Shown here: positions 1-27,600 of the stretch, one piece after another
How the letters are laid out: each line of letters begins with the position of its first letter
Numbering within the stretch: the first letter of the stretch is position 1
NCBI GenBank assembly: GCA_030427245.1
Contig: JAUHXA010000072.1
Location: 1 to 34,774 of the forward strand
Length of the DNA: 34,774 nt
Direction: 5' to 3'
DNA from: Bacteroidia bacterium
GTDB lineage: Bacteria > Bacteroidota > Bacteroidia > Chitinophagales > UBA2359
The notes under the pieces: generated by a model
Databases searched by the model: none
The model's input: the letters and a program-made list of their open reading frames with translations, nothing else
Told to the model about the DNA's origin: nothing
Translations under genes and position numbers: made by a program

Positions 1-3
1 ACT

Positions 4-41
4 GTTCCACAATGAAACACCTCACTGTTCCACTCTGAAAC
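4..41 (+). promoter_or_regulatory. Two tandem dyad operator sites (candidate enhancer-binding sites)
   Basis: Two copies of GTTCCA-N3-TGAAAC lie at 4-18 and 27-41, 23 bp apart start to start, so on nearly the same helix face. Each is an imperfect 6-3-6 dyad (consensus GTTYCA-N3-TGRAAC); the shared stretch begins three bases earlier with ACT. They are centred about 120 and 97 bp upstream of the start predicted from the sigma-54 promoter at 105-119. That spacing fits an upstream activating sequence for an NtrC-family activator. The sites are read directly; the regulator and binding are inferred. The window begins at base 1, so more copies could lie outside. Confidence 0.6.
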
Positions 42-104
42 AAAAAAACAATCTCCAATCCCAAAACAAATCGTAAATAAATCAAAATCAACCACTTACT
101 TCAA

Positions 105-119
105 TGGCACAAGCTTTGC
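105..119 (+). promoter_or_regulatory. Sigma-54 (RpoN) -24/-12 promoter
   Basis: TGGCAC-N5-TTGC matches the sigma-54 consensus (TGGCACG-N4-TTGC) at every position except the less conserved G after TGGCAC. The GG of the -24 element and GC of the -12 element are correctly spaced. The predicted start is near base 131, giving a leader of about 95 nt before the permease ATG at 226. With the tandem dyads upstream it forms a complete-looking enhancer-dependent promoter. It should drive the 226 permease and possibly the whole cluster. Confidence 0.7.
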
Positions 120-225: not shown

Positions 226-2670
226 ATGTTTAAAAATTACCTAAAAGTCGCATTTCGGAATCTTGTAAGAGGCAAAATTTACACCTTCATCAATGTGGCG
301 GGATTATCGGTGGGAATCGCTTGTTGCGTATTGATATTGTTGTATGTCAGCGATGAATGGAGTTTTGACCAATTCCATGCGAAGTCCGACAACATCTATC
401 GAGCATGGACAAAAGAACAGATGAACGGCGAAGTGTTTTTCAATACCGTTACGCCTTTTCCATTGGCTGCAATGTTTGAAGAGCATGTTCCAGAAGTAGA
501 GGCGATATGTCAGGTGGTCAACATGAACGATTTGGTGAAAGTGGGTGAGTTTTCAGCTTCCGAAACAGTGCATTTGGTGAGCGATGATTTTTGGGAGATG
601 TTTGATTTTGAAGTCATTGAAGGAACTACTCCAAAAGATTTACACGAAATCGTTGTCACTCCCTCGATTGCCGAAAAATACTTCAAAAGGCAATCTCCTA
701 TCGGTCAAAATTTGGCGATTCGGATGGGCGAAGACTTCCAAAACTTCACCGTTTCGGGCATCGTTGCCGCTCCTCCGAGCAATTCCAGCCTGCAATTCAA
801 TTTATTGATTCCTTTTGACCACGCCAAAACCATTTTTTCACAAAATGCTTTGACCAGTTGGTTCATCATCATTGCCGAAACGTATGTTTTGTTACGTGAC
901 GGGGTGACGGCTGAAATGGTAGAAGCCAAATTGCCCTCTATTATTGACCCAATCATGGCAAAGGATTTTCAGCCTGGTGAATACACAGCAGGGCTGCAAC
1001 CATTGAAGGACATTCACCTCAATACGGACTATCCCGTTGGCATGGTAGCGATTAGCGATGCACGATACAGCTATATTTTATCGGGAATTGCCTTTTTGAT
1101 ACTGCTTTTGGCGTGCATCAATTTTATGAGTTTGTCGATAGGGCGTTCAGTCAGTAGAGCCAAAGAGGTAAGCGTCCGCAAAGTAGTGGGTGCAAAACGT
1201 TGGCACTTGATGCAGCAGTTTTGGAGTGAAGCCATTTTGGTGACTTTCTTTGCTGCAATAGTTGGGTTGTTGTTGGCAGAATTGCTGCTGCCTACCTTCA
1301 ATCAGTTGGCAAACAAAAGTTTAACCTTGCAGTTGTCGCTCGGCAATTTATCTATTTTGGCAGCTTTGACCCTATTCATTGGCATGGTTTCGGGCAGCTA
1401 TCCCGCTTTGGTTTTGTCGGGTTTTTCACCCATTCAAATATTGCGAGGCGTTTTCTCCAAAACAGGCAAGGACAAACACTTGGTTTTGAGGGGAATGATT
1501 GCTTTTCAGTTTGCGCTTTCGGTCGTGCTGATTGTGTGTACGGTGGTCATGCAAAAACAACTCAACCACCTGCAAAACAAAAACTTAGGCTTTGACAAAG
1601 AACAGGTTGTGGTACTGCCATATAGTGCTACTCCAACGCCCGACAAAGGTTTGCTGATGATTATTGAAGAAGGCAAAGAAAAGGCGGAATTGCTGAAAAA
1701 TGAATTGAAGGGAAATCCTGCGATACAAAGCATTACAGCCGCTACCCACTCTTTCGGCAATGGTGATTGGCTGCGATTGGGTTATACGGATGCGAATGAC
1801 GGCAAATTTCGGAGGTTTTCGGTCAATGCAATAACACACAATTATTTCGAAACGATGGGCATCGAGTTGGTCGAAGGACGTTTTTTTGACGAAAGTATGG
1901 CTACCGATGACACAACGGCGGTGATTATCAACGAATCTATGGCAAAAACTTGGGGATGGGAAAATCCGATTGGTCAAACACTGCCCAAGCCTTTTGACAG
2001 TCAGCGCATTATTGGAGTAGTCAAAGATTTTCACTTTTCGTCTTTACATACGCCAATTGGCCCTTTGGCGATGGTCATTAATCCTGCGGTATTATTGCAG
2101 GTGACACATGATTTGACTTTTGAAGACGACCCTGCTCCCGATATTTCCATCAAAATTGCTTCTGAAAATATCCCTGCTGTTTTGGAGGACATCAAAACGG
2201 CTTGGGCAAATGTTGCACCCGAACAATCCTTCAATTATGCCTTTTTAGACGATGCAATTGACCGTCAATACCAACAGGAAAGCCGATTGGGTAATATCTT
2301 GCATATTGCCACACTTTTGGCGATTTTCATTGCTTGCTTGGGTTTGTTTGGCATTGCTACTTTGACGATTGCTCGAAAAACAAAGGAGATTGGCGTTCGC
2401 AAAATTTTGGGTGCTACGGTGAGCAACATTACGCTTTTATTGACCAAAGAATTTGCAGCTTTGGTGCTGATTGCCAACTTGATTGCTTGCCCGATTGCCT
2501 ATTATGTGATGTCGAATTGGCTGCAAAATTTTGCCTATACGACTTCGATTAGTTGGTGGATTTTTGGTTTGGCAGCTACCTTGAGTTTGGTCATTGCGAT
2601 GATAACGGTGAGCTTTCAGGCGGTTCAGGCGGCTTTTGCAAATCCAGTGAAAGCGTTGCGGTATGAGTGA
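226..2670 (+). CDS. MacB/FtsX-type ABC transporter permease (first of three)
   Basis: This is an 814-residue inner-membrane subunit of an ABC transporter of the MacB/FtsX group, whose members use ATP in the cytoplasm to drive work in the periplasm. A first membrane segment at about residues 21-41 is followed by the family signature SFDQFH and a large periplasmic domain. An FtsX-type membrane block begins near residue 285. A second membrane segment near 425-445, a second periplasmic domain and a final membrane block complete a duplicated architecture. The protein ends NPVKALRYE, like the other two permeases here. The ATPase at 3029 is the obvious partner. The sigma-54 promoter at 105-119 lies upstream. 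The leader from the predicted transcript start has no convincing Shine-Dalgarno. The substrate is unknown; family members export peptides, lipoproteins or drugs. Confidence 0.93.
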   Translation: MFKNYLKVAFRNLVRGKIYTFINVAGLSVGIACCVLILLYVSDEWSFDQFHAKSDNIYRAWTKEQMNGEVFFNTVTPFPLAAMFEEHVPEVEAICQVVNMNDLVKVGEFSASETVHLVSDDFWEMFDFEVIEGTTPKDLHEIVVTPSIAEKYFKRQSPIGQNLAIRMGEDFQNFTVSGIVAAPPSNSSLQFNLLIPFDHAKTIFSQNALTSWFIIIAETYVLLRDGVTAEMVEAKLPSIIDPIMAKDFQPGEYTAGLQPLKDIHLNTDYPVGMVAISDARYSYILSGIAFLILLLACINFMSLSIGRSVSRAKEVSVRKVVGAKRWHLMQQFWSEAILVTFFAAIVGLLLAELLLPTFNQLANKSLTLQLSLGNLSILAALTLFIGMVSGSYPALVLSGFSPIQILRGVFSKTGKDKHLVLRGMIAFQFALSVVLIVCTVVMQKQLNHLQNKNLGFDKEQVVVLPYSATPTPDKGLLMIIEEGKEKAELLKNELKGNPAIQSITAATHSFGNGDWLRLGYTDANDGKFRRFSVNAITHNYFETMGIELVEGRFFDESMATDDTTAVIINESMAKTWGWENPIGQTLPKPFDSQRIIGVVKDFHFSSLHTPIGPLAMVINPAVLLQVTHDLTFEDDPAPDISIKIASENIPAVLEDIKTAWANVAPEQSFNYAFLDDAIDRQYQQESRLGNILHIATLLAIFIACLGLFGIATLTIARKTKEIGVRKILGATVSNITLLLTKEFAALVLIANLIACPIAYYVMSNWLQNFAYTTSISWWIFGLAATLSLVIAMITVSFQAVQAAFANPVKALRYE

Positions 2671-3028
2671 ATGATTGTGTTTATGTATGGATGCAATTTT
2701 GAACACGGAGGCACTGAGACACAGAGGTTTTTTGCTCACTTGATTTGGGAAAACTTGTCCTGATACCTCGGGATTGAACGCTGATATTTTCTCTTGTCAT
2801 GCTGAAAGCATCTTGTGGATTGGTACGATAATCTTTGGTGACTTCTACAAAACTTCTGATTATCCATTGATTTTGTGCTAATTGCTAACAGGATTTTTAC
2901 AAAATGACAATAGGGTACTTACCCCTTAGCATAAACACGTACAGACGTTTTAGTAAAACGTCTCTACAAACGCATAAACACAATTACCAACACGAATACA
3001 ACTATCAACATAAACACAAAAAATAAAA
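2671..3028. repeat. Spacer composed of short dispersed repeats
   Basis: This 358-bp spacer has no credible gene. ATTGTGTTTATG at 2674-2685 and its exact reverse complement at 2973-2984 bracket most of it, as in the spacer at 6137-6488. Next to the left end is GCAATTTTGAAC (2693-2704) running into a degenerate GAG/CAC-rich stretch (2701-2727) that recurs at 6222-6246. A small dyad around 2799-2811 and a 14-bp palindrome at 2939-2967 follow. The last 45 bases before the ATPase are A/C-rich and almost free of G. Confidence 0.6.
2939..2967. repeat. Near-perfect 14-bp palindrome
   Basis: Arms of 14 bases (2939-2952 and 2954-2967) pair around one central G with a single mismatch; the core is AGACGTTTTA / TAAAACGTCT. 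It looks like the REP-type GAGACG palindromes scattered in intergenic DNA of many bacteria. It could form a hairpin in the transcript between permease 1 and the ATPase, but no T-run follows, so it is not a typical terminator. Confidence 0.6.
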
Positions 3029-24659: not shown

Positions 24660-27600
24660 TTATTCTTTCACCAATCTTTGAGTTGCAACATCTGTGCCAT
24701 TGTTCAATGAAACCATGTAAATACCTGCTGGGTAAGAAGAAATGTCAATTACTTGATTGTTAACACCACTTGTAGCATTAACACTTGCTTTCAACATTAC
24801 TCGACCAGTCAAGTCATATACATTTACTTCTACGCTGCCATTGTTAATTGCAGTGTAAGTAATTTCAACATAATCAACCGCAGGAACAGGACGTACATTT
24901 GTGATATCAAATGAACCTTCTCCACGAGTTAAGCTGATAACGTTTGTAGCATCATTTTGACCGTCAAAGTCAAATTGAGTCACTCTGTAGTAGCTTGTAC
25001 CAGAAGGAGCAGCACGATCCAAGTAGTTGTAACCAGTAGGAACTACTGATTCACCAACAGCTTTTACCGTAGCAATTGTTTCAAAGTTTTTACCATCCAA
25101 AGAACGCTCAACAGCGAAGTATTCGTTGTTTGTTTCAGAAGCTGTCATCCATTGAAGGAAGTTACCAGCAGTTTGAACCTCTCCATCGAAACTCAACCAC
25201 TCTACTGCATCTTCTTTCTGACAAATTACAGGGTCAGAAAGAAGATTGAATGTTCCACATCCACCAACTTCTACAATATTGATTTCATAACTATCTCCAT
25301 CCGCAATACCGCTGAATGAGAAATCATCATCTTCAGTTGCCATATAAGTTCCAGTTACAATGTACATAGTACCAGGAGTACTATTATTTATAGTAACATT
25401 AACCGTTACCAACTCAACATTTTGATCACAATCTTCTTGAACAGTAACATCAAGAGCAGTAGAATCAGCAAAAGTAATAGCCAAAGGATCTGAACCAAAT
25501 GCACATTCATCATTCAAATATAATGGTTCATCTACAAATCCATCTCCATTTGCATCAGGACCAACGATAGTAGTGATATAATAAGTTCCTGCTCCACCAG
25601 CTTCTCCTCTTGTGAAAACGCCTGTACTATTAGTAGAAACTGCGCTACCTATAGGATCAGTAGAATCTGTATGTAAAATAAAGTTTCTAACAGAAGCAGC
25701 TACATCTGGATTCTCAGGATTCGTATCTACAAAACCATCAGATGAAACAGATACACTGATACTTCCATTTTCGCCACAAGCAGTAGTTCCTTCTGCACCA
25801 GCAATAACTGAACCCGCAACGTTTTTACACTTGCTACATACTAGAACTCCTACTACCGTTACTGCTTCACAACCTTCGCTATCTGTTACAGTGACTTCAT
25901 AATCTTCACTATCCGCCACTATAAGAGTGACAACATTTCCATCAACTTCCCCATTAAATGAGCCAGCAGAAGTATAAGGGGCAGTCCCACCTAAAATAGT
26001 AATAGTAACAATACCCCCATCTGAACCAATTGTTGTACATTCTTCTACAACATCCAAAACAATTGGACATACATCTACTTGTTCTTCACAAGGAGCATCG
26101 CCAGAAATAGTTGAAGTTTCGCCAGTTTCATTGTCAGATACTGTGAAAGAATAGTCCGTACCACAAGCAATTGCATCGCTCGTAAAAGTACCATCCATGC
26201 CAATTGTACCACCATCAGCAGAGTAGTTTCCAGAACCGCCAGTAATGCTGAAAGACACTGTATAAGTATCATCACCTACAGAAGTAGAAGCATCAGAAGT
26301 AGCCAATGGATCTAAACATTCTTCTCTTGTAATAGCCACAGCCTCAGTGATGTCATAACAAGCATCTTCGCCAAATGCAGCAATAATATCACCCAAGTTA
26401 CCACCTTGTACGAAAGCAGTGTTTTCGTCATTTTCCCAAGTAACACCGTAAGCATTACAGATACCAAGACCTGCATCATCAAAGTTATTTGAAAACTCGG
26501 TTGTTCCAACTACACCAGGAGTAAGAATTGTACCCGTAGTAGCATCTGTAACAACATAACCATAATTTCCTCCTCCCATATAAGAAGAAGTAAAGTTAAT
26601 CACATCAGGCTCACCGTCAACACAAATAGTCGTTGGGTCCATTGTGCTAATAGTACCAGCATCACCATCGGCAATACCACATTCTACTACTGCACAAGCA
26701 GGATCATCTTCAGCATACCAGATTACTTGAATTGTTTCGGATAATGGCTGACACTCCCAAGTAATGATGGTGCCATCTGGGCCAATATCTTCAATCAAAC
26801 TAAGCGTATACCACAAAGTATCCGCTACACCATCTCCAATCAAATCCAATGGAGGTAAGAAAAGACCACCTGGTGTACCTAAAGGATTGCCCATAGGGTC
26901 TTGTGTATTCTCAATCCAAACAGGAGTAGGATTGTCACCTACCAAACCACCATAATTGATAGTAGCTTCGTTAGGAGCAAATGAAACTACATCATCCAAA
27001 CAAAGTGTAACGCTCAATGACGTACCCTCTGCTAAATCAACATTGGCATCTGTGCAATTATCTCCACAATCGCCTTCTCCATCTGCAAGGAAACACACCT
27101 CAATAGATTCTGTACCGACTGCTTGACAATCAAAGAACAAATAAGAACCAACACCTGTAATCGTAATGGCACTTGTTGGAGTAAGCCAAATACAATCCAG
27201 TCCAAAACCGAAAGGATCTTGTCCGTCAGGGCTGCCATCAAGTTCAAAATCTGTACCTATAAATCCGAGGAAGGATGGATCCAATCTTGGATGTCCACCT
27301 GCTGGATCTTCTGAAGTCATTTGAAAAACAACTTCATAAGTTAACCCAGTTCCGATAGATGCTCCGCCAAAGTTTAAGGTAGCATCATTGATAGCAGGCA
27401 AGAAAGAGTCACCAGTACATAGACTGACAGCTGTTTCTGAACCTTCAGCTAATTCAACATTGGGATCACAAACCCAGTCTGTAACAACAATACAAAACTC
27501 TCCAGCAGAACCAGCAAAACCATCTATCATAATGTGGTATTCAACACCTGCTTCTGTGGCTAAAACCACACCAGCAGGGAAGTTTACATTAAATTCAAAC

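Follow-up and report, generated by a model that had tools for sequence, protein, structure and literature searches.

The locus studied here raises the question of which regulator, encoded where in the genome, switches on the FtsX-type exporter genes that begin at its left end. The window, by which we mean the whole analysed stretch of 34,774 nucleotides, is an entire contig (C179) of a Bacteroidia bacterium assembly of 7.58 Mb in 187 contigs. NtrC-type enhancer-promoters combine tandem dyads about 100-120 bp upstream, a -24/-12 promoter, and an activator of receiver, AAA+ and helix-turn-helix (HTH) parts with its kinase. The first-pass annotation had read the left end of the window in this way, and we found both of its elements where it had put them: TGGCAC-N5-TTGC lies exactly at 105-119 of the plus strand without a mismatch, and the two dyads, 23 bp apart, extend beyond the inner cores to 17-mers (Table 1). 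The extended form common to both dyads is TGTTYCA-N3-TGRAACA with a start-to-start spacing of 23 bp, and TGGCAC begins 79 bp after the start of the second. If transcription starts near 131, as presumed, the centres of the dyads are some 120 and 97 bp before it, reproducing the distances first proposed and falling within the 80-150 bp upstream of a sigma-54 enhancer-promoter's activator dyads. The gap between promoter and first exporter gene also contains a GC-rich hairpin in the leader (185-203; region 131-240, z -3.1) that has no T run.

Table 1. Coordinates of the promoter elements, exporter genes and candidate regulatory genes (window positions unless a locus is named).
Feature	Position	Strand	Basis or remark
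-24/-12 sigma-54 promoter TGGCAC-N5-TTGC, TGGCACAAGCTTTGC	105-119	+	exact, no mismatch
Upstream activator dyad 1 (putative), TGTTCCACAATGAAACA, 17 bp	3-19	.	sequence match; inner core GTTCCACAATGAAAC at 4-18
Upstream activator dyad 2 (putative), TGTTCCACTCTGAAACA, 17 bp	26-42	.	inner core GTTCCACTCTGAAAC at 27-41
FtsX/MacB-type permease, 814 aa, first gene after promoter	226-2670	+	PF12704, PF02687
ABC ATPase, 229 aa	3029-3718	+	domain match
FtsX/MacB-type permease, 798 aa	3740-6136	+	MacB_PCD/FtsX domains
FtsX/MacB-type permease, 810 aa	6489-8921	+	MacB_PCD/FtsX domains; presumed to share the promoter
Sigma-54 regulator	L014:9078-10454	-	contact loop of GAFTDA/GSFTDA type, with relatives
Kinase beside regulator	L014:7736-9085	-	hydropathy

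Neither element is remarkable by itself in the window. The -24/-12 pattern with at most one mismatch occurs five times where 2.81 are expected (16 of 100 shuffles reach five), and the dyad with at most two mismatches occurs six times against 5.27 expected, which is the chance level. A second exact TGGCAC-N5-TTGC at 24685-24699 of the minus strand sits within a coding frame, without a dyad pair, and is probably fortuitous. Across the genome the exact promoter pattern is listed 14 times, against a base-composition figure of 7.6 and one occurrence of the reversed pattern; the end common to C61 and C179 reduces the 14 to 13 distinct sites. Eight of the 14 are inside open reading frames of at least 100 aa, and among the five distinct matches (of 13) outside such frames two have dyads. 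Positions 1-127 of the window are identical to the last 127 bases of C61, and therefore the dyad pairs on these two contigs represent one promoter. The core GTTYCA-N3-TGRAAC is listed at eight places, six paired and two single, while the perfect extended dyad is found at six places in the genome, all of them as 23-bp pairs and at two distinct promoters only, at each of which TGGCAC-N5-TTGC follows the second dyad at 79 or 80 bp and FtsX genes lie downstream. A base-composition model expects 0.2 single perfect dyads and, for pairs of one given spacing, about 5e-9. The combination of dyad pair and promoter is beyond chance, and the annotation's own caution that the dyad might recur at random through the genome is answered by the perfect form, which is always paired. 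A chance match would fit the near-chance counts of each single element in the window, but given that the pair is restricted to two promoters and that its layout is conserved in relatives (see below) we assign that reading a negligible probability.

The single dyads on C83 and C186 we take as chance, and likewise a one-mismatch dyad on C13 that lies within a coding frame and has no partner. This survey at one and two mismatches covered about 50 of the 180 two-mismatch sites genome-wide. A scan of the loci extracted from this genome gave no further good dyad pair, and no full element appeared in the stretches scanned at the large FtsX genes on C38 and C88, the former with fewer than 300 bases upstream to the contig end.

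Downstream of the promoter, domain searches identified the FtsX/MacB-type permeases and ABC ATPase of the exporter cluster that had been predicted there. With the regulator-adjacent ABC genes at two same-family loci (L064 and L066) the ATPase shares 64 and 67% identity. Its best NCBIfam model is DarD (283.9, below the curated cut-off of 375), and the first permease gives a sub-threshold match to ADOP, then DarB in second place (135.7, curated cut-off 700); with scores this far below the curated cut-offs, we do not assign the genes to the darobactin exporter DarBCD. In the interval that separates the first exporter gene from the second, scans for a terminator or a further promoter remained at shuffle level. 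The 358-base gap from the first permease to the ATPase (2671-3028) looks repeat-derived. The genome's other perfect-pair promoter, on C19, has the dyad pair, then TGGCACAGCCTTTGC at 80 bp, then genes for an ABC ATPase, an HlyD-type fusion protein and an FtsX/MacB permease. The C19 operon thus encodes a membrane-fusion protein (MFP), and the window cluster is without one. The idea of a promoter dedicated to one exporter had to be given up, as the same dyad pair precedes this second FtsX operon.

What, then, might activate these two promoters? The first-pass annotation had made its reading depend on the presence of rpoN, and the genome has one Sigma54_DBD match (PF04552, E 4.2e-54, contig C79). 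None of its 11 PF00158 matches, five of them strong, lies on C179 or on C61, which adjoins the window on the left through the 127-base end overlap, and we reject the idea of a regulator encoded just left of the window. An HTH_8 domain was scored by Pfam in just three of the five strong matches, those on C18, C65 and C35: the C18 protein is NtrX/AtoC-like, the C65 protein has no receiver, and the C35 regulator combines a receiver (PF00072), PF00158 and a Fis-type HTH (PF02954), the domain set of the NtrC class, with a histidine kinase gene adjoining. Elsewhere, at C55:52829-54785 (L015), two proteins with a sigma-54 activator domain and no HTH match are encoded amid receiver- and ATPase-domain proteins. 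The best candidate for the activator is the C35 response regulator-kinase pair, which in this assembly is unlinked to both exporter operons. A two-component or ligand-sensing activator had been expected, perhaps to the left of the window; with an NtrC-type two-component regulator as best candidate the expected type was probably right, but its place, with the candidate on C35, wrong.

One feature of the C35 regulator departs from the NtrC class. Its sigma-54 contact loop reads GAFTDA and not GAFTGA, a motif called invariant in the part of PMC12316311 available to us, and because of this difference we say that the protein would work like an NtrC-class activator. Within the best 80 of 454 relatives the loop is GAFTDA or GSFTDA in 71/77, GAFTGA or GSFTGA in three, and unread in three. 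Since the variant loop is shared by 71 of these 77 relatives and stands beside -24/-12-like sites, it is probably functional with sigma-54.

Four genomes of the same family contain relatives of the C35 regulator that are 48-51% identical to it. At L064 and L066 the orthologue is divergent from an MFP-ABC-FtsX operon; at L065 the divergent gene encodes an MFP and lies where the contig ends, and at L063 no exporter lies within the 6.4 kb of the locus. Pairs of 17-bp dyads with a 23-bp spacing and the core TGTAAA precede the exporters at L065 and L066, with a -24-like TGGCAY 80 bp after the second dyad; the dyads of L063 and L064 are 16 bp long and of GTTCG type. Among these relatives the layout is kept and the letters change. 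The exact dyad pair is absent from 394 other genomes of the phylum and from 59 relatives, an absence that says little for the relatives because the exact pattern misses degraded pairs such as that of L103; and because it is so strict, the layout emerged only through the search by regulator.

For this wider set, genome contigs were searched with the receiver domain and the best 80 of 454 relatives were kept, with FtsX genes in 66 of the 80 loci. Setting aside 13 loci with a same-strand upstream gene and six without a usable regulator frame or upstream gene left 61 divergent regions, and in these an unbiased count of spacings between 17-bp dyads (range 18-41) peaks at 22 bp (9/61), followed by 21 bp with four and all others with three or fewer. 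We then counted as a pair two dyads 21-23 bp apart that both begin with TGT, at least one of them ending in ACA, with 10 or more of the 14 arm positions paired. A TGT-N11-ACA dyad pair of this description is present in 34/61 divergent regions (from the best 80 of 454) and in 4/634 control upstream regions of other reading frames at the same loci; the remaining 27/61 have none by these criteria. In 32 of the 34 pair regions the best -24/-12-like site is 69-83 bp downstream, L109 being an exception and L134 a tie with a farther site. Under a fixed promoter rule (a score of at least 10.9 of 15, at 66-85 bp), pair and promoter occur together in 32/61 regions, against none in 40 shuffle rounds and 3/634 other upstream regions, and some of the control matches may be genuine second sites, because L080 and L118 carry elements outside the regulator's own region.

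These counts also bear on a different reading, in which a repressor or some other dimeric regulator occupies the dyads and the -24/-12 match is coincidental. Palindromes of this length would suit many dimeric regulators and the -24/-12 pattern by itself is not rare, but in this genome TGGCAC-N5-TTGC stands at 79/80 bp in each of the two loci with a dyad pair, and the 32 regions of relatives with pair and promoter at 66-85 bp lie beside a sigma-54-type regulator; we consider such a coincidence very improbable. A scan of 1.82 Mb of extracted DNA listed 52 elements (including the window twice, via C61, one overlapping pair at L151, and mirror readings at L114 and L156), most of them before OEP/TolC-sized, MFP, ABC or FtsX genes, and the three unlabelled 450-aa genes that we examined are OEP (TolC-type) proteins. 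From these comparisons the window switch looks like part of a conserved Bacteroidota circuit whose layout recurs, with altered letters, before similar exporters of many members of the phylum. Sigma-54 regulators of a second, related group (L067-L072 and L079; identity about 40%), with short-looped kinases, stand at the end of MFP-ABC-FtsX-FtsX operons, in the same direction.

We compared recognition helix and operator at 80 loci, this genome being entered as a test pair of window operator and C35 helix (GRTTLYRK). Operators were sorted by the best-fitting model regardless of protein, and helices by sequence; 49 loci were assigned, 30 fitted no operator class, and one had no readable helix. We found N/S/K-type helices with 38 A-type operators (TGTMWAA), GR..LYRK helices with three TTCCA operators, YRR helices with six TTCG operators (16 bp), and SRTTLYLK helices with two TTCRG operators, so that helix and operator class agree at 49/49 assigned loci, with operator models drawn up after part of the same loci had been seen, and with 0/20,000 permutations as good when kinship is ignored. 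By operator and helix this genome joins L103 and L133 in the TTCCA/GR..LYRK class, and the near copies L093 and L097 have one TTCCA dyad each; L144 has a helix of the GR..LYRK class, yet no TTCCA operator. In a first tree the TTC-type regulators are on one side of a branch (support 87/88). A tree built without the HTH, from which L122, the C18 row and the last 45 residues were omitted, with 42 operator labels transcribed by hand, gives four changes each for operator and helix classes, and because the classes changed only about four times the figure of 49/49 overstates the independence of the loci. TTCCA and GR..LYRK are found together in 2/2 independent pairs, in two separate parts of the tree; a single clade for GR..LYRK is rejected (p-AU 0.028) by a test chosen after the tree had been seen, and a sign test on independent pairs cannot reach significance. 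The pairing probably arose twice, which we take as suggestive and nothing further. Across the assigned loci operator core and recognition helix change together, with few independent events.

This distribution is also what distinguishes the C35 regulator from the other HTH-bearing activators as a reader of the dyads. Both the receiver-less C65 protein and the NtrX/AtoC-like C18 protein have HTH_8 and sigma-54 domains, and C65 has the canonical GAFTGA loop as well as a helix, SERTLYRK, that has LYRK in common with the GRTTLYRK of C35. C65-type proteins, however, are present in 57/60 relatives with ERTLYRK in 10/10 helices read (nine SERTLYRK, one AERTLYRK), and the C18-type helices are conserved in the five seen (IQRSHLYNK in four relatives, IQRSHLHNK here). 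A widely conserved helix should mean a widely conserved operator, and this is not seen, because the exact operator pair is in 0/59 relatives and 0/394 other phylum genomes (by a strict pattern that misses L103), whereas TTCCA-class operators do stand beside C35-type regulators as pairs at L103 and L133 and singly at L093 and L097. Among the genomes compared the C35 helix is lineage-specific, like the operator. Binding by C65 or C18 is for these reasons an unlikely alternative, if a less remote one than a repressor. In the available part of the source on Flavobacterium psychrophilum, a C65-type activator is beside an LptE-like region.

Taken together, these observations make it very probable that window positions 3-119 form a sigma-54 enhancer-promoter, most likely driven by the C35 response regulator and its adjoining kinase, and that the C19 operon would be driven by the same pair. 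We infer a chain that runs from binding and phosphorylation to transcription start, co-transcription and regulation. The C35 regulator would be phosphorylated by the kinase encoded beside it, and as an NtrC-type response regulator would bind the two 17-bp dyads, 23 bp apart on one face of the helix. Through DNA looping its AAA+ ATPase would then drive the sigma-54 polymerase waiting at the promoter into an open complex and so induce the exporter genes of the window (FtsX-ABC-FtsX-FtsX). Regulator and kinase would likewise act on the ABC-MFP-FtsX operon of C19, such that both sets would be made together and C19 would supply the fusion protein.

The scheme resembles NtrC-type systems in its dyads, -24/-12 element, domain order of the C35 regulator and kinase partner; it differs in that the operator core is unlike the NtrC box, the loop is GAFTDA and the targets are FtsX exporters. 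Likewise it shares with the Bce-type modules of Firmicutes an FtsX-type exporter linked to a two-component system and a two-helix kinase with a short loop. BceR is an OmpR-class regulator, and because the regulator here has NtrC-class sigma-54 domains the system is not a Bce-type member; moreover, its permeases are of MacB/ADOP type, often with MFP and OEP/TolC genes. The C35 kinase has predicted membrane helices at residues 10-26 and 33-49 with about six residues between them, the two-helix, very-short-loop form of Bce-type kinases. By hydropathy only, and in a comparison confined to kinases of FtsX-linked groups, 65/74 kinases of the set have two membrane helices and a loop of at most 15 residues, and six kinases of the sister FtsX-linked group look similar. 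A cytoplasmic stretch precedes the catalytic part of the C35 kinase, in which Pfam scored no PAS domain, and this stretch might sense a ligand. Intramembrane-sensing kinases of Bce type, which it resembles, receive the signal from a transporter of FtsX type.

Sigma-54 promoters before FtsX-like permeases have been predicted from sequence, and COG0577 was found enriched in Bacteroidia and two other classes, in a 2025 study whose available text calls this the first evidence of the link (PMC12316311). The promoter class is the same as ours; the strings 'upstream activat' and 'palindrom' do not occur in its main text, where we saw no activator assignment, and what is added here is the pairing of operators, with its spacing, and a candidate family of activators. 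In Flavobacterium psychrophilum, also of the Bacteroidota, -24/-12 starts were mapped and three PF00158 proteins were reported, with a sigma-54 regulon that, in the accessible portion of that paper, comprises chaperones, proteases, gliding genes and exported proteins and does not name FtsX exporters (PMC9723704). The part of PMC3162934 available mentions neither Bacteroides, Bacteroidetes nor FtsX. The open-access literature covered, in part as excerpts, gave us neither the paired operator nor its activator nor the helix-operator covariation, which does not prove that none has been described.

More tentatively, and with odds that we would put well below even, Bacteroidota may own a sigma-54-run, exporter-coupled module in which a kinase nearly devoid of extracellular sequence senses, in place of a ligand, the state of the FtsX exporter itself; a GAFTDA regulator would then fire the two-dyad enhancer to give more exporter. 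Operator and helix would then drift together, to the point that the switches of sister lineages (TGTAAA/TGTCTAA, TTCCA, TTCG and TTCRG classes) became mutually unreadable, and in this genome the regulator would have parted from two exporter operons that it still controls. Whether Bacteroidota also use the transporter as a sensor is the question raised by the short-looped kinases beside FtsX exporters. With this analysis a promoter match that stood alone becomes a regulatory family open to test, in which it can be asked which activator acts, where, and which of its residues read which bases; in our impression, and not by count, few sigma-54 circuits of the phylum have a named activator and operator. 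That sigma-54 promoters apparently work next to a GAFTDA loop is of interest for the strictness of the GAFTGA rule, and the natural helix-operator pairs offer ready material for decoding how Fis-type HTH activators read DNA.
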